A stretch of 32,258 bases of DNA from a virus. Below, piece by piece: positions 4,708-26,273 of this stretch. A program made the translations under genes and the position numbers. The DNA lies in the IMG/VR virus record IMGVR_UViG_3300044997_000720, positions 1 to 32,258 of that record; one strand, 5' to 3'. The notes under the pieces are model-generated. The model was not told the DNA's origin. It made no database searches and saw only the letters and a program-made list of their open reading frames with translations. The first letter of the stretch is position 1, and each line of letters begins with the position of its first letter.

Positions 4708-4902
4708 ATGTATACTGCGCAAAATGTAAGGTTGAAAACTATTGCAGAACGTGCTGGAGTAGAATATTCAGAAAGCATTGAATTGTTTGCTGAGATGATA
4801 GCAGCAGAGTGTGCTGAAATAGCAGAAACAACTTGGGAAGTCAAATTGCCTGCGGCTCCTGTGATACGCAGACATTTTAATCTAGTTGAACCTAGACAAT
4901 AG
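4708..4902 (+). CDS. Small T4-like phage hypothetical protein (64 aa)
   Basis: From the ATG at 4708 the product runs MYTAQNVRLKTIAERAGVEY onward and contains ELFAEMIAAECAEIAE (about residues 26-41). This resembles a FAELIVRECA-type motif I recall from many small proteins of T4-like marine phages. No strong Shine-Dalgarno is present. The stop (TAG, 4900-4902) lies a few bases before the tmRNA acceptor piece, so the gene and the RNA may share one transcript. Function unknown. Confidence 0.6.
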   Translation: MYTAQNVRLKTIAERAGVEYSESIELFAEMIAAECAEIAETTWEVKLPAAPVIRRHFNLVEPRQ

Positions 4903-4968
4903 TTATTGTTGTATGAAGGAAGTTGAAAAACGGGCAAGACAGGGGTTCAAATCCCCTCTGGTCCACCA
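4903..4968 (+). ncRNA. ssrA: Permuted tmRNA, acceptor piece (3' half)
   Basis: A T-arm with a perfect 5-bp stem and TTCAAAT loop (4941-4957) is followed by the 3' acceptor strand CTGGTCC (4958-4964), discriminator A and an encoded CCA (4966-4968). No matching 5' acceptor strand exists upstream; it lies downstream at 5079-5085 (GGGCCAG) and pairs over all seven positions. The third pair is G-U, the alanyl-tRNA synthetase identity pair found in tmRNA and tRNA-Ala. GAC just before the T-stem also matches tmRNA. A candidate inter-piece helix pairs TGTTGT (4907-4912) with ACAACA (5120-5125). The 5' end is not determinable by eye; 4903 is a guess set by the preceding stop codon. Confidence 0.85.
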
Positions 4969-4980
4969 AAAAGGTATCTT

Positions 4981-5052
4981 ATGATTGAAATACTGGGATT
5001 TTTTGGAACATTTATTGTTATCATAGTATTGGTTTCTGTTATTGTAGGTTAA
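4981..5052 (+). CDS. Possible 23-aa membrane microprotein inside the split tmRNA locus
   Basis: ATG at 4981, 12 nt after the encoded CCA, opens a 23-codon frame ending in TAA. AAGG lies about 6 nt upstream. The product (MIEILGFFGTFIVIIVLVSV and three more residues) is one continuous hydrophobic helix with a single acidic residue, typical of a single-pass phage microprotein. It lies wholly in the intervening segment that would be removed when the tmRNA precursor is processed. The frame is short enough to be chance; the ribosome site and the uninterrupted hydrophobicity are the only support. Confidence 0.4.
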   Translation: MIEILGFFGTFIVIIVLVSVIVG

Positions 5053-5076
5053 CTCAATCCTTGAGATATCTTTTTT
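5053..5076 (+). terminator. Small hairpin with T-run before the tmRNA coding piece
   Basis: CTCAA (5053-5057) pairs with TTGAG (5061-5065) over a 3-base loop; six T follow at 5071-5076 after a five-base gap. It starts directly after the microprotein stop. The stem is weak; it could be a partial terminator or a processing signal in the intervening segment. Confidence 0.3.
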
Positions 5077-5078
5077 AT

Positions 5079-5290
5079 GGGCCAGCACTGGGATCGATTG
5101 ACGTATAATAAATGACTGGACAACACGATAGGCGAAGAACGTAATTCTAGCAAAACAAATAGACGCAAATGACGACTATTTTTATCAGGAAGTCAAGCTA
5201 GCTGCTTGAATCTGACGGGGTAGTTATACCTAGCAACAGAAAATAGCTGCACATGGGACCTTGTCCCATGTGCCTATTACTTCAACCAGC
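5079..5290 (+). ncRNA. ssrA: Permuted tmRNA, coding piece (5' half with tag frame)
   Basis: It begins with the 5' acceptor strand GGGCCAG (5079-5085) and a D-loop-like region ACTGGGATCGATTGACG close to the conserved tmRNA start. The resume context AATAGACGCAAATGACGAC closely follows the E. coli tmRNA pattern. The tag frame runs from the resume codon GCA at 5165 to TGA at 5207-5209 and encodes ANDDYFYQEVKLAA, ending in the LAA type of degron seen by ClpXP-like proteases. A hairpin TCAAGC/GCTTGA (5193-5198 with 5204-5209) spans the end of the tag and its stop codon, as helix 5 does in E. coli. A further 11-bp hairpin follows at 5249-5273. The 3' end (here 5290) is estimated. It should rescue stalled ribosomes with SmpB. 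Confidence 0.88.
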
Positions 5291-5461: not shown

Positions 5462-6154
5462 TTATTTAATGCTTAACTTTTGATTCTGCTGTGCAATTAT
5501 GGTTTTTCGCAATTGATCTACAATTCCGCTATTTCTTAGACTTTTAAAGGTTAGATTGGCAATGCCGTATTCACCTTGTATTCTAAGTCCTTTTTTCCTA
5601 AATTCTTTAAGTCTATCTAATACCTGTTCTAATGACTCTAGATCTTTGCTAGCAATGGCATTGGTAATTATCTTATACCATTTCATAGCTAATTTGTTTA
5701 TAGCTGCGTGATCAATGTCTTGGTTTGGTTCTGTACTTGGTCTCAGCCATTTATCTTTGATAATACTGTATGCACCGCCTACGGTAAATTGTCTGCTGTC
5801 TTCTACATATAGCTCTACTGGGATACCTTTGATCTTGATGTTATATTGTTCTTTGTATAATAAACGTTTAGTATCGAATAATTCACTTAATTCCTTGTCA
5901 CAGTTAATTCTATCATAGTCAGTTATTATGTGCAGATCTAGATCGCTGTATTTTGTATAATATTTGTTGGTTTGTCCTCCGGTTATGATAACATCAATCA
6001 CAGGAAAATCTATGTCAACATATTTTCTAAAGTGCTTGGCAACAGCAATTAATTTTTCCTTAACTTCAGCTGTAAGTTGATTGTCTTTCCAAAGACTGGG
6101 ATTAAGCTCACTATGAGTTTCAATGCCAAACGGTAGGAATTCAATAATTTTCAT
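5462..6154 (-). CDS. Nucleotidyltransferase-fold protein (230 aa)
   Basis: The core motif is GG at about residues 59-60 followed by YSDLDLH at 69-75, with Asp71 and Asp73: the GG-x(9-13)-DxD signature of the polymerase-beta-like nucleotidyltransferase superfamily. A third acidic residue may be in PVELYVED (about 112-119). The C-terminal half is helical. Such proteins transfer nucleotides to proteins, RNA or small molecules; the target here is unknown. The N-terminus MKIIEFLPFG resembles the opening of some T4-like phage proteins. No Shine-Dalgarno is present; instead AATAAATA lies 6 nt upstream of the ATG. Its 3' end faces the tmRNA locus. Confidence 0.7.
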   Translation of the reverse strand: MKIIEFLPFGIETHSELNPSLWKDNQLTAEVKEKLIAVAKHFRKYVDIDFPVIDVIITGGQTNKYYTKYSDLDLHIITDYDRINCDKELSELFDTKRLLYKEQYNIKIKGIPVELYVEDSRQFTVGGAYSIIKDKWLRPSTEPNQDIDHAAINKLAMKWYKIITNAIASKDLESLEQVLDRLKEFRKKGLRIQGEYGIANLTFKSLRNSGIVDQLRKTIIAQQNQKLSIK

Positions 6155-6177: not shown

Positions 6178-6750
6178 ATGATTATGGAAGACATCGACAA
6201 CTATATAGGGTATTTACTGGCAGCACATCCTAAAAGACAAGATCCAGTTTTGAGACGAGGTGTAATTTTAGTAATTGATAATGATCATTCTGGAGCTATA
6301 GGTTTACAAATTAACAAACCTATGGAAAATCAAACATCTCTAGGTAGAATAATGATGAGTCTAGGAATTTCCTATGACAAAGATAATCATGTATATTTTG
6401 GCGGTCCTGAAAATACAAATAGGATTATTGTGTTGCATAGTTTGGATTGGAAAAGTACAGGTACAACATGTCTAGGTAGTAATTTTGGAATAAGTAACGA
6501 TATCAGTGTTCTTGCTGCTATTGCAAGTGATAATGGTCCTCAACATTTTAGGGCCATAGCAGGTGTATATAGATGGCTGCCAGGACATTTTGAAAGTGAA
6601 TTAGATGGAACACCTCCCTTCAATGAAATTGGCAGAAGATGGAGTCATGTTCCTGCAAGTTTAGATTTAATTTTCGGTCATGATGGTTTAACTCAATGGC
6701 ATAACCTAATAGAAGAACATGCCAAAACTCTAATAAGTTCTTGGTTTTAG
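6178..6750 (+). CDS. AlgH/UPF0301 (YqgE) family protein (190 aa)
   Basis: The sequence follows the UPF0301/AlgH pattern: an N-terminal GYLLAAHP, RRGVILVIDND with GAIGLQINKP (about 25-47), VYFGGPENTNRIIVLHS (about 72-88) and a C-terminal part with FRAIAGVYRWLPG and LDLIFGHDG. Length is normal for the family (about 185-200). Bacterial AlgH is a small cytoplasmic protein with an unclear role, linked by name to alginate regulation. The gene is alone on the plus strand, 23 bp from the divergent nucleotidyltransferase gene, and overlaps the end of the helicase gene by 4 bp. No Shine-Dalgarno is visible; a second ATG at 6184 is an alternative start. Confidence 0.8.
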   Translation: MIMEDIDNYIGYLLAAHPKRQDPVLRRGVILVIDNDHSGAIGLQINKPMENQTSLGRIMMSLGISYDKDNHVYFGGPENTNRIIVLHSLDWKSTGTTCLGSNFGISNDISVLAAIASDNGPQHFRAIAGVYRWLPGHFESELDGTPPFNEIGRRWSHVPASLDLIFGHDGLTQWHNLIEEHAKTLISSWF

Positions 6751-11618: not shown

Positions 11619-12404
11619 TCATTCATAAATTTCACTTAAGGTTGGAGCATAATTTCCTCTATGTTTTACACTTTCACCTGCTGCTTTCGTGGCAAGATCT
11701 ATAGCTGCATCCATATCTCCGTTTGATTCTAGGTAGCCATAGACTAAAAATGCTAGGAAGGTATCGCCTGCCCCACAAACATCGCTGACTTCGACCTTTT
11801 TGGCAGGATAGTGGCGAGATTTATACATAACGCCATTTGCACCATTTGTAACAATAAGTCCATTTTCATCTTTAGGTGTACTAATTAATTTATTATATTC
11901 TAAAAAATTTACTTTTATAATTGCACCGTCAAATTTTCTAAGATCAGTTTTTTTTGTATCAATAAAAATAGGTTTTTTACATGCTTGCAATATGCCTTCT
12001 ATGTGAGCATACTGTAAAAATCCTTTATTATAATCAGATATTACCACAGCATTGAAATCATTGTAAGAATGATAAAAGGGTAATTGGCCATTCCATGAAT
12101 CTATTTTGGGTTCATTATCTGCTCGTAAAAGGTGCTGGCCGGTTTTTTTATCAATAAATCTAATTTTTTTAATAGTTGTATTATTTGTTATAAATTGGAC
12201 ATCTTGTTCTAAATTCTGAAAATTCTTCTTTACATTGGCAGCCATACCAGGTGTATTAAATGTTTCCTTAATATTAAGAATAGGTACTGGGGCCTCTGGA
12301 CTGATTCTTTCGCAGAATCCTATAAAATATTCATCTATACAACTATCCCCTATTAATAATATCTTGAATTTTTTTGGTACTAGAGTATTTTTCGATTCTT
12401 TCAT
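11619..12404 (-). CDS. hldE1: PfkB-family heptose-phosphate kinase (HldE kinase domain-like, 261 aa)
   Basis: A ribokinase-fold sugar kinase. The N-terminus has LLIGDSCIDEY and GFCERISPEAPVPIL, the segment typical of the HldE (RfaE) heptokinase domain; NTPGMAANVKKN is the GGAANVA-like motif, and VSDVCGAGDTFLAFL is the anion-hole and catalytic Asp motif. It should phosphorylate D-glycero-D-manno-heptose 7-phosphate at C1. At 261 residues it is shorter than the bacterial domain (about 315). It overlaps the adenylyltransferase gene by 62 nt in another frame. In bacteria both domains are usually one protein, kinase first; here they are two genes, kinase second. Confidence 0.85.
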   Translation of the reverse strand: MKESKNTLVPKKFKILLIGDSCIDEYFIGFCERISPEAPVPILNIKETFNTPGMAANVKKNFQNLEQDVQFITNNTTIKKIRFIDKKTGQHLLRADNEPKIDSWNGQLPFYHSYNDFNAVVISDYNKGFLQYAHIEGILQACKKPIFIDTKKTDLRKFDGAIIKVNFLEYNKLISTPKDENGLIVTNGANGVMYKSRHYPAKKVEVSDVCGAGDTFLAFLVYGYLESNGDMDAAIDLATKAAGESVKHRGNYAPTLSEIYE

Positions 12405-12744
12405 AAAATATAATTTCTTTACAATATTGACTACCTATTATATGTGAATTTTTATAGTCACTGCCCTTAATCATAATATCAGGTTGAAAATTTTTGATAT
12501 AATTTTCTAATTCTAAATCAGAGTCAAAAATATCTATTCTATCTACGTATTTTAATGAAAATAAAAGGCTAGATCTTTCATATTCATTATTGATTGGACG
12601 TTTTTTACCTTTTAATTCTTTCACTCTTCTATCACTATCTATGAGAACATAAACAAAGCTATCCTTAAATGATTTGGCATAGGATAAAAGATTTAAATGT
12701 CCGATATGTATTAGATCGAAGGTTCCATTTACAACAATCTTCAT
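12343..12744 (-). CDS. hldE2: Heptose-phosphate adenylyltransferase (HldE C-domain-like, 133 aa)
   Basis: A small HIGH-type nucleotidyltransferase: VNGTFDLIHIGHLNLL (residues about 4-19) contains the HxGH motif, SDRRVKELKGKKRPI follows, and PDIMIKGSDY matches the LVKGGDY region of HldE. Length is normal for the stand-alone domain (about 135-160). It should transfer AMP to heptose-1-phosphate to form ADP-heptose. Its ATG overlaps the epimerase stop (ATGA), and its 3' end overlaps the kinase gene. A glycerol-3-phosphate cytidylyltransferase relative is the main alternative, but the neighbours favour heptose. Confidence 0.82.
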   Translation of the reverse strand: MKIVVNGTFDLIHIGHLNLLSYAKSFKDSFVYVLIDSDRRVKELKGKKRPINNEYERSSLLFSLKYVDRIDIFDSDLELENYIKNFQPDIMIKGSDYKNSHIIGSQYCKEIIFYERIEKYSSTKKIQDIINRG

Positions 12745-13514
12745 ATATCTATTTCTTTCTTAATTTTTGTTAAATCTGCACACGTATAATATTGATATTG
12801 ACTTTGCAAATTTGTAGGCATAGGAAAATATTCAATTTTTGCATTATATTTTTCCGCAATGTTTTCTGCAATCTGTTGAAAACTGATTACTTTACCAGAA
12901 CCTACATTCCATATTCCACTTTTTTGCACTTCAAAAAATTTCTTATGTACATCTATAACCTTGTCCACATGAATAAAATCTCTCCAACATTGATGGCTAT
13001 TTTTAAAAATCCGTATTATGCCATGTTCTTTAGCTTGTTTTTCAAATTTTGAATATGGACTTGATTGATCTCCTTTATGATCTTCATGTTTTCCGTAAAC
13101 ATTAAAATATCTAAATCCTTGTACAATAATATTATCTAATTTTAATGATTGAACATTTCTGTCAAACAAGTATTTGCTCCATGCGTAGGGACTTTGGGGA
13201 CTACAAGGAGCTTCTTCATTAAAATTATCTGTAAGTCCATAAACACTTGCACTACTTGCATATTGTAGATTCACGTTGTTAGCCTGACAGGTAACCAATA
13301 AAATACAACTAAAATCAAAATTATATTTCATAATTTTTTCAACATTAGTTTCAGTTGTATCTGAAATGGCACCAAGATGAATTACCCAATCTAAGCCTAT
13401 AAAACTTGGTATAGGATTTCCATATTCATATAGAATCAATTCATGGTCATTTTGTAGAGCATTAACCATGTTCTGACCTATAAAACCTTTGTAACCTGTA
13501 ATTAAAATTTTCAT
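12741..13514 (-). CDS. hldD: NAD(P)-dependent sugar epimerase, HldD-like (257 aa)
   Basis: An extended short-chain dehydrogenase fold: the dinucleotide motif GYKGFIG (GxxGxxG, residues 7-13), HLGAISDTTE (about 46-55, an HldD-type signature), SSASVYG and YAWSKY (the catalytic Tyr-x3-Lys), and FRYFNVYGKHEDHKGDQSSP. This pattern is closest to ADP-L-glycero-D-manno-heptose 6-epimerase, which makes the LPS core sugar precursor. It is about 50 residues shorter than the bacterial enzyme (about 310). It starts 2 nt after the cupin stop and overlaps the next gene by 4 nt. Confidence 0.85.
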   Translation of the reverse strand: MKILITGYKGFIGQNMVNALQNDHELILYEYGNPIPSFIGLDWVIHLGAISDTTETNVEKIMKYNFDFSCILLVTCQANNVNLQYASSASVYGLTDNFNEEAPCSPQSPYAWSKYLFDRNVQSLKLDNIIVQGFRYFNVYGKHEDHKGDQSSPYSKFEKQAKEHGIIRIFKNSHQCWRDFIHVDKVIDVHKKFFEVQKSGIWNVGSGKVISFQQIAENIAEKYNAKIEYFPMPTNLQSQYQYYTCADLTKIKKEIDI

Positions 13515-13516
13515 AA

Positions 13517-13876
13517 TTATTTTATTTGATTATCGCCTTTTTGTACTCTATAATTGTCTTCTACACTATCTGGAGTACTTACTTCAATTATGGTTCCTTC
13601 TTGTAAACAAAAAAGTTGATGCGGTAAAAGCGGAGGATTATGCCATGTGTCGCCTGGAAGTAATTCTTTTTCTAATATGTCTGCATTTATAGTATCAATA
13701 TATTTCACAATAAATTTTCCATTTAAAACGTACCAGGTCTCGTCTTTTTCTGCATGAAAATGCATGCTGAATTTTGAACCTGTTTTGAACATCATCAGCT
13801 TTCCACAATATTTGTCATTAGAGCACCAAATTATTTCATGTCCCCAACCTTTGTGAACGTGCCCGTTTAATCTCAT
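13517..13876 (-). CDS. Cupin-fold protein, sugar-isomerase-like (119 aa)
   Basis: A single cupin barrel: metal ligands appear to be His39, His41 and Glu46 in HFHAEKDE, with His86 in LLPHQLF (the HxH-x(3-4)-E ... H pattern). PGDTWHNPP (about 74-82) matches the second cupin motif. Similar cupins, close to type II mannose-6-phosphate isomerase, often sit in phage and bacterial sugar cassettes beside hldE- and hldD-like genes. Substrate unknown. It overlaps the preceding zinc-finger gene by 4 nt, which ties the sugar cassette to the replication operon. Confidence 0.8.
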   Translation of the reverse strand: MRLNGHVHKGWGHEIIWCSNDKYCGKLMMFKTGSKFSMHFHAEKDETWYVLNGKFIVKYIDTINADILEKELLPGDTWHNPPLLPHQLFCLQEGTIIEVSTPDSVEDNYRVQKGDNQIK

Positions 13877-24245: not shown

Positions 24246-24253
24246 TATTTATT
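24246..24253 (-). promoter_or_regulatory. Late-type octamer 6 nt before a start codon
   Basis: AATAAATA on the minus strand ends 6 nt before the ATG at 24239. It overlaps the stop of the terminase gene by 2 bases, so it lies at the junction of the two genes. Confidence 0.6.
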
Positions 24254-26273
24254 AGTGTGTGATGTAAATGGGCATGGGCATAATCCACTCATCTTCTCGT
24301 TCTTCACGCATTTTATCATAGATTGAAGGATCCCACTCTTGTAGCATCATTATCATACGTAGTGCTAACAGCATACTACTGACTAAATCATCAGTCGAAC
24401 CTGTCTTACCTGAAAAACTAATACCTTTGGCTACGTAGGTTTTTAATTCGCTTATTAAAGGTTTACTATAGATTTTTAGCTTATCACTTTCTATTAGGTA
24501 CTTCAATTTGGCACAGATTGATATTTTGGCAGAGTGTGTAGTATTAAATCCTTTGCGGAATCTACGAATGTGTCCTTTTTTTATAGGTTCACTTAAGAAA
24601 AGTCCGGGAATAGTTTCTTCACCTATTTCTGTAATAGCCACCAGTGCTGCCTCACCTACAGCATTGTTTTCAATACTAAAATATAAGTTTGCTTGACTTC
24701 CTTGTTTCGCACACTCGTCATTGATATAATTGCAGATATCTCTTAGTATGCGTGCTTGACCTTGTATAGTTGTTAAATTATGCTGCCATTCTCCCGTTTG
24801 TTCAAAACTTGGAATCTCTAAAATTTGTATAGCGGCAGGGTCTCCTCCTGTTCCAAGACTTGGATCTAAAGCAACAATATAAGTAGCTGTTGGTTTTATT
24901 TTTTTATACCAGCGGCATTGACCCATCTTCATATAGGGTTCTTTGCCTTCCAAATTAGCTAATTTTAAGCTGTTTATCAGTGTTTCATCAAAGACCAAAA
25001 ATTCGCAGTTAGAAACTAATAAACCGTTGGCAAAAAATCTATGATTTTTTCCTACATTATATAGATCATATACTATTGCGATTCGATTGGTATCTTTTAT
25101 ACTGATAACCATTTCTGTTCCAGAGGACGTTATAATTTTATGGTTAAGTGTTAGGTCCTTGGCAGATACTCTTCCCATTCCTTCTATAAAAAATTCATGG
25201 TCGTGTGTGGTTTCTATTTCTTGAGTTTCAGTTTGTACTTTAATAGTAGGTCTTTGACCTTTCCTGATAAGCCCGTCAAAATTGTTCCATCCTGAATCAG
25301 TCATAACCTGCAGGTTAAGATTATTTTTTAAGTATTCTTCCACGAACAAATCCTTCCCCAACATTATCAATTCTAAATCAAATACGGTCAATAATTTTAT
25401 ATCGCCATTGGGAAATTTAATTTTTAATTTGCTTTCCCCAGTTATACATTCATGCTCACGCTTGAATCGTTCTTCTCCAATACTTGCTCGCTCTATAGCA
25501 GCCCATTTTTCATCTCGTTCAGGATGTTCGCTCCAATGTGCTCTAAAAGGAAAGAAGCCGTTTCTTCCCAGTTTTGTTGAATTGCCGTGTTCGTCAAATC
25601 TATAGCTAGCATCTTTCCATATAAGAGCGAATTGATCTTCATCTGAGTTAGGAGTTGATGTTAATATAGCCTTTCCACCTGTGGCCAATGTAGGACGTAT
25701 TGAAGTCCAAAATTCCGCAGCAATGCTAGGTTCTACAAAGGCAAACTCGTCAGCATACAATAAAGAGATACTCATACCACGTCCGGTAGTTTCTGTAGTT
25801 GTTTGTGCTACTATACGACTGCCGTTGTCAAATTCAATACTTTGTTTATTATAACTTGTGACACCGCATCTGATATGATCAGGACACAACTCATAAGAAT
25901 ATCTAATACGCTGCATAATTTCCTGCGCACCGGTATATTTGTGTGCCGCTACCAATATTGTGCTGTCAGGTATGAACATAGCAAACCATAATAGATATCC
26001 TGCTGCTGTAGTGGTTTTACCCGTTTGGCGAGGTAGTAGGTTGATATTGAACCTGTGATTATGATAACTATCAACTAAACGTTTTTGATAGGGATATGCG
26101 TTATACTTGAGCTTACCACGAACAGGGTGCTGAATATAGAAAAAATTACTAAGAAAATAATGTGGTCCATTAGTTTTATCCTGACAGGCCAACAGATTAT
26201 CTATCTGCTCTTCTGTCCATTTTTGCTGAACATTAGCATTTTTAACTAATTTGTAATCCTTAGGAATTGCCAT
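24252..26273 (-). CDS. 17: Terminase large subunit gp17 with inserted mini-intein (673 aa precursor)
   Basis: The packaging ATPase and nuclease. Walker A RQTGKT is at residues 82-87 and Walker B LLYADE at 171-176. The nuclease domain has Asp470 in IVALDPSLGTGG, Glu535 in YFSIENN, and Asp628/Asp629 in STDDLVSS, matching the acidic cluster of T4 gp17. Residues 276-422 are an intein (listed separately), so mature gp17 would be 526 residues; T4 gp17 is 610. It cuts concatemeric DNA and pumps it into the prohead with gp16. No Shine-Dalgarno; a TAAATAAA element lies next to the ATG. A strong terminator ends upstream transcription at 26290-26312. Confidence 0.92.
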   Translation of the reverse strand: MAIPKDYKLVKNANVQQKWTEEQIDNLLACQDKTNGPHYFLSNFFYIQHPVRGKLKYNAYPYQKRLVDSYHNHRFNINLLPRQTGKTTTAAGYLLWFAMFIPDSTILVAAHKYTGAQEIMQRIRYSYELCPDHIRCGVTSYNKQSIEFDNGSRIVAQTTTETTGRGMSISLLYADEFAFVEPSIAAEFWTSIRPTLATGGKAILTSTPNSDEDQFALIWKDASYRFDEHGNSTKLGRNGFFPFRAHWSEHPERDEKWAAIERASIGEERFKREHECITGESKLKIKFPNGDIKLLTVFDLELIMLGKDLFVEEYLKNNLNLQVMTDSGWNNFDGLIRKGQRPTIKVQTETQEIETTHDHEFFIEGMGRVSAKDLTLNHKIITSSGTEMVISIKDTNRIAIVYDLYNVGKNHRFFANGLLVSNCEFLVFDETLINSLKLANLEGKEPYMKMGQCRWYKKIKPTATYIVALDPSLGTGGDPAAIQILEIPSFEQTGEWQHNLTTIQGQARILRDICNYINDECAKQGSQANLYFSIENNAVGEAALVAITEIGEETIPGLFLSEPIKKGHIRRFRKGFNTTHSAKISICAKLKYLIESDKLKIYSKPLISELKTYVAKGISFSGKTGSTDDLVSSMLLALRMIMMLQEWDPSIYDKMREEREDEWIMPMPIYITH
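25008..25448 (-). other. Mini-intein in gp17 (147 residues, residues 276-422)
   Basis: It begins with Cys276 in CITGESKLKI (block A), has THDHEF (about 356-361, block B with the usual His359), then VYDLYNV (block F) and HRFFANGLLVSN before Cys423 of the extein (block G). No LAGLIDADG or other homing endonuclease fits in 147 residues, so it cannot home by itself. The penultimate residue is Ser instead of the usual His. It sits between the ATPase and nuclease domains, at the site EHE/CEF. Splicing should restore an uninterrupted gp17. Confidence 0.9.

Follow-up and report, generated by a model that had tools for sequence, protein, structure and literature searches.

Does the permuted tmRNA gene of a phage encode a tmRNA and nothing else, or may its intervening sequence (IVS) also hold a small gene? 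In a permuted tmRNA, the spacer is regarded as waste, and the benefit of the permuted order is debated. The locus at 4907-5209 raises this question in the window, by which we mean the whole stretch of DNA analysed here (32,258 bases, IMG/VR). Genes for tail sheath, tail tube, DnaB, RecA, a gp32-like protein, and a T4-type terminase are present, the terminase being nearest to those of PA5oct, Munch, GAP32, and Atu_ph07 (280-490 kb phages), and the window is apparently a piece of a large T4-type phage. The terminase large subunit gene (24252-26273, minus strand) contains an intein-like insert (weak PF14890 match, residues 335-382); among relatives, this gene varies from insert-free (1563 nt) up to a form with a bigger insert (2691 nt). 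PfkB-like, cytidylyltransferase-like, epimerase, and cupin genes adjoin at 11619-13876 (minus strand), which suggests phage-encoded synthesis of a nucleotide sugar, perhaps ADP-heptose. An AlgH-like (DUF179) protein is encoded at 6178-6750 (plus strand, E 1.6e-22), and a nucleotidyltransferase-like gene (5462-6154) lies between it and the tmRNA region.

The permuted tmRNA model (tmRNA_permuted, RF04321) matches 4907-5209 over model positions 1-213 of 213, scoring 115.4 bits where the cut-off is 47 (E 4.2e-22). All parts of the locus are on the plus strand. The acceptor piece (4907-4968, starting with the RF04321 match) includes a T-arm (4941-4957), the 3' acceptor strand CTGGTCC (4958-4964), and the discriminator A with an encoded CCA (4965-4968). 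The coding piece, which the model follows from 5079 up to the tag stop at 5209, opens with the 5' acceptor strand GGGCCAG (5079-5085). The order is therefore the permuted one, with the 3' acceptor/T-arm piece upstream and the 5' acceptor/tag piece downstream. All seven acceptor pairs form, including G3-U70, the alanine identity pair. The tag frame (5165-5209) encodes ANDDYFYQEVKLAA, 14 residues with the usual LAA terminus, and the stop that follows lies within a 6-bp hairpin (5193-5198 with 5204-5209). The 3' part of the coding piece (5210-5273) was placed from the beta_tmRNA match at 4862-5275 and ends near an 11-bp hairpin (5249-5273). A 64-aa ORF with no Pfam match (4708-4902, plus strand) ends 4 nt before the tmRNA match and possibly shares one transcript with it. 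A first-pass annotation had proposed a phage-encoded permuted two-piece tmRNA here, with this acceptor pairing, the CCA ending at 4968, the partner strand from 5079, and its own tag frame with a hairpin over the stop; every one of these parts is present, in a phage with a T4-type terminase and a sheath. It had named a covariance model and ARAGORN as suitable checks. RF04321 scores far above its cut-off, and ARAGORN called no tmRNA at the locus; the two disagree because ARAGORN has no match, and sensitivity is greater for the covariance model. The sequence gives strong evidence of a circularly permuted two-piece tmRNA gene at 4907-5209.

Relatives of the locus also bear on its integrity. The tag, as ANDDYFYQ[DE][VL]KLAA, was found in about 35 viral contigs. 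The stem of the tag-stop hairpin co-varies among relatives (TCAAGC/GCTTGA versus TTAAGC/GCTTAA), and so do the acceptor strands in a first sample of relatives that was collected with no selection on acceptor sequence (CTGGTCC/GGGCCAG, CAGGTCC/GGGCCTG, CATCTCC/GGGGATG, and CCGGTCC/GGGCCGG). The locus might be read as a degenerate tmRNA remnant left after recombination with the host ssrA gene, since ARAGORN does not recognise it and its TTCGAC motif has diverged to ATCGAT. However, the acceptor, T-arm, resume context, and tag are all intact, many contigs share the conserved tag, the stems co-vary, and a host flank is absent, so that we hold a remnant to be highly improbable.

The first-pass annotation had also placed the tmRNA with those of alphaproteobacteria, a kinship that gives way to another. 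The alpha model (RF01849) scores 56.8 bits on the window, above its cut-off of 50, yet below the 78.2 bits of the beta model (RF01850), which itself falls slightly short of its cut-off of 84. Relatives exceed the RF01850 cut-off (L086, 135 bits; L240, 132; L238, 107; L135, 95). Of the two lineages, the betaproteobacterial permuted tmRNA thus appears the closest to that of the window. Many relatives have the tags ANDEQFALAA or ANDERFALAA, a type which we take to resemble the tags of betaproteobacteria. Given the better beta-model scores and these beta-like tags, the phage host is probably betaproteobacterial. SmpB (PF01668) was absent from 29 phage records, among them 231-, 164-, and 137-kb contigs, although these records may be fragments; the same search was positive in 10 of 14 control genomes. 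A complete trans-translation kit, with a phage-encoded SmpB, was accordingly not found in those 29 records, and the tmRNA would therefore depend on host SmpB. The retargeting of host tagging that the first-pass annotation had raised would be by a tag that keeps the usual LAA terminus. A DNA search of the window locus against a phage collection gave no match. The tag-pattern scan of genome contigs returned two stray loci, in a Bacteroidales MAG (L158) and in Staphylococcus simulans (L159).

A tmRNA of this kind had been thought unusual in such a phage. That view does not hold, as 53 two-piece tmRNAs were predicted in a 2021 phage database (PMC9004378) and all our pattern scans together give more than 150 viral permuted tmRNA loci. 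Scans with tag and coding-piece patterns alone found about 60 viral loci, and RF04321 confirmed nearly all of them. The IVS of each locus was delimited by parsing on the 7-bp acceptor pairing, which in the window fixes both ends at 4969 and 5078 (110 nt); this segment is predicted to be absent from the mature RNA. In the fold, the IVS ends form a closing stem (3' arm, 5061-5078) that stacks on the acceptor stem, giving a single long hairpin. The window stem has a dG of -12.7 (z -4.8), and 0 of 200 shuffles were equally low. Among 111 distinct IVS, the ends pair beyond 95% of shuffles in 87% (mean z -3.6), and 97 have TGAT or TAAT as their 3' end, shortly before the coding piece. These data strongly support a real closing stem, and the maturation enzymes presumably act on the long hairpin of acceptor and closing stems.

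In most other relatives, the IVS is a compact, ORF-free hairpin of 50-80 nt. The L217, L236, L255, and L232 groups have long IVS (95-119 nt) that are ORF-free and conserved across contigs, possibly structured RNAs occupying the same slot. Tandem repeats are found at the IVS front, with TAAGGAAATATCCA three times in L084 and an in-frame 12-nt ATGGAGTCAGTT in L169. Two further loci with a permuted tmRNA (110 bits), L148:1540-1580 and L150 (IMGVR_UViG_3300023179_001094 and _000123), have CATCTCC and GGGGATG linked by AAGACGAG only, and CCA is not encoded; their RNA may need CCA addition or remain a closed single piece.

The IVS of the window appears to hold a coding frame that the first-pass annotation overlooked. 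Its first six bases are a Shine-Dalgarno-like AAAAGG (4969-4974), located in the 5' arm of the closing stem and 6 nt 5' of an ATG. This ATG, 12 nt after CCA, opens a putative nested ORF of 23 codons (MIEILGFFGTFIVIIVLVSVIVG, 4981-5052), whose stop lies 26 nt before the coding piece. The predicted peptide resembles a single membrane helix (hydropathy 3.01 over 19 residues), with the caveat that T-rich DNA readily gives hydrophobic translations. By itself, the window ORF fits chance: an ATG frame of equal cover occurs in 18% of shuffled IVS (P 0.18), and codon usage gives P 0.13. Such values would be expected if this were an ordinary two-piece tmRNA with a non-coding spacer, in which the frame is an AT-rich accident and AAGG a by-product of a purine-rich stem arm. 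Two observations favor the non-coding spacer: most relatives have an A/G-rich stem arm, and no such ORF is present in about 37 of the 49 clusters of long IVS among the matches listed. We nevertheless regard it as unlikely, though the contender to be taken most seriously, on the following evidence.

The window ORF has a candidate homologue, MIEAIGFFITLMALMWIAIILGEMFL, at the same slot in L238, L287, and L302. The peptide of these loci, MIEAIGFFIT(L)(M/I)ALMWIAIILGEMFL, starts at CCA+11 with AAAGG upstream, and the N-terminal alignment of the window and L238/L302 peptides scores 44 (shuffle P 0.001); the DNA is also similar. The tags of these tmRNAs differ, being ANDDYFYQEVKLAA in the window and ANESRFALAA in the L238/L287/L302 group. 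We have moderate confidence that the window ORF is homologous to these ORFs and hence a member of an IVS-ORF family. An ATG at CCA+12 with AAAAGG also occurs in the unrelated families L082, L083, L089, and L102, and in the first sample of relatives, the slot held unrelated frames whose ATG was often exactly at CCA+12. Coding support for the window ORF consists of its position and the likely homologue, and its 23 codons lean on the family evidence.

For this family evidence, viral sequences were scanned with a pattern blind to ORFs (T-arm, GGTCCACCA, 90-120 nt, GGGCC, TCGA), which yielded at least 119 loci with 87 distinct IVS in 49 clusters among the matches listed. In 12 of these 49 listed clusters, an ATG 9-16 nt after CCA opens, in every member, a frame that spans 70% or more of the IVS, against 1.53 expected from shuffles by summed probabilities (P 1.9e-8); the offset range, cover threshold, and motif list were chosen once the blind sample had been inspected a first time, and the first sample had already shown the fixed ATG offset. 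Reverse complements preserve composition and stems, and gave 1 of the 49 clusters listed. Of the 12 ORF clusters, 11 have a ribosome-binding motif within the first 13 nt, against 5 of the 37 others among the matches listed (Fisher P 1.6e-6). GG-rich 5' arms are thus rare in ORF-free IVS, which argues against the motif as a by-product of the stem. Again among the matches listed, most ORF families from the blind scan terminate at the TGA within the conserved TGAT, which lies 4 nt ahead of the coding piece; some IVS ORF families have their stop beyond the junction.

Amino acid replacements are fewer than random placement predicts in the MDDD (10 versus 17.9, P 0.0005), MNIL (3 versus 7.6, P 0.004), and zinc-finger-like (12 versus 18.2, P 0.0045) families, and also in MPVD (16 versus 25.6, P 0.0001), where the value is rough as the frames of the pair differ after about residue 27. 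Pooled, there are 48 replacements versus 76.4 expected (P below 5e-5); these are counts of distinct substitutions rather than tree-based events, and the expectation ignores RNA structure in the loop. Substitution tests of the coil, MTEE, and MQKC families gave no significant protein-level constraint. Start, ribosome-binding site, and protein-level constraint were nevertheless found across families, and sequence evidence strongly supports that IVS ORFs are in excess and conserved across phages. The ORF excess over shuffles, the motif bias, the bias toward synonymous changes, and the likely homologue of the window ORF at the same offset all speak against the non-coding spacer. Phage permuted tmRNA genes thus appear to have a second role as carriers of nested small genes.

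Of 18 representative IVS peptides, 9 are single-membrane-helix-like; one family is zinc-finger-like (CxxC..HxC), and others are soluble. Searches of phages by tblastn with the 61-aa L084, zinc-finger-like, and MIEA peptides gave no match. The IVS ORFs of the L228 group were rejected as chance, as they have no ribosome-binding motif and their frames break in relatives. The cultured phages Marzo, Yut2, YB07, Mendera, DLP_6, X1, XacN1, QDWS595, BUCT628, and HTVC008M have an IVS without a convincing ORF. The cultured freshwater Synechococcus phage BUCT-ZZ01 (L182:894-1005) has an unannotated permuted tmRNA, and its 111-nt IVS holds a 16-codon frame only (MYKLLQQFIILKIVCP). The possibility that the ORF is required for tmRNA maturation was ruled out because most IVS are ORF-free.

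We propose that the acceptor stem and the IVS ends fold into one long hairpin in the precursor, from which host RNase P and 3'-end enzymes would excise the IVS to leave a two-piece tmRNA. With host SmpB and EF-Tu, this tmRNA would rescue stalled ribosomes and append ANDDYFYQEVKLAA. The small gene in the IVS loop would be translated from the precursor. Pairing leaves the ribosome-binding region of the window 8% unpaired in the precursor and 30% in the nascent form, with similar values in most families, and a paired ribosome-binding site would impede translation of the completed precursor. Ribosomes therefore most likely initiate while the RNA is still nascent and the 3' arm has yet to be transcribed; once the ribosome is off, the stem would close and processing follow. 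In those families whose stop is past the junction, translation would have to come before cutting. As the ribosome-binding site and stop are in the processing stem, one transcript would yield a microprotein, often membrane-bound and in the window a membrane peptide, and then the rescue RNA. We infer processing, co-transcriptional translation, the SmpB partnership, and peptide function from the sequence. Taken as a whole, a beta-like permuted phage ssrA gene with a translated small gene in its IVS loop is the probable explanation of the locus. A further step, in which the IVS is a standing small-gene slot whose translation is coupled to tmRNA maturation and ties rescue to the translation state, seems doubtful.

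The same stem could also act as a switch resembling a leader peptide, in which ribosomes hold the closing stem open and delay cutting by RNase P and the 3'-end enzymes, and less initiation gives more tmRNA. The stem arms contain both the ribosome-binding site and the stop codon, and the difference in pairing between precursor and nascent RNA would suit such a switch. However, the same stem is found in most relatives, where the ORF is absent, and the peptides are conserved at the protein level within families and unrelated between phages, a pattern indicative of a functional peptide. We consider the switch improbable and retain the translated small gene as the preferred reading.

If phages keep conserved small genes in the IVS, annotation pipelines overlook a class of microproteins. 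Permuted tmRNA genes would then be two-product genes, and the permuted order would gain a use in gene packing. A start-codon mutant would separate the peptide from the RNA and offers an experimental handle. Searches that covered the open literature gave no account of a coding IVS in a permuted or two-piece tmRNA. The two-piece tmRNA of phages is already known, and the coding IVS appears to be new.

Two-piece tmRNAs have been described in the marine Pelagibacter phage HTVC008M and Methylophilales phage Melnitz (PMC9004378), and 79 phage tmRNA sequences are listed in PMC11915505, which also covers about 12,000 permuted tmRNAs of bacteria. The marine-phage tmRNAs share with the window the permuted order, encoded CCA, degron-like tag, and T4-type phage, whereas HTVC008M has a 49-nt IVS without an ORF and the tag ANFNEYALAA. 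Among bacterial lineage models, the betaproteobacterial permuted tmRNA (RF01850) fits best, and relatives are above its cut-off; the window differs from this type by its score under the cut-off and a longer IVS with an ORF, and its tag has 14 residues, in contrast to the 10-residue AND..ALAA of many relatives. Inserts within the IVS were reported in PMC11915505 as single cases in cellular genomes, one a tRNA gene (tmRNA-Ala) and one a repeat. They are alike in placing extra sequence within the discarded IVS, whereas the window and its relatives come from phages, in which protein-coding ORFs recur together with ribosome-binding sites. The tmRNAs with a group I intron and nested homing endonuclease genes (PMC11915505) also contain a protein gene within a segment that the tmRNA gene loses on maturation. 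However, that segment is a self-splicing intron and encodes a mobile endonuclease, whereas the window and its relatives would have microproteins of 23-61 codons in the spacer of a permutation.
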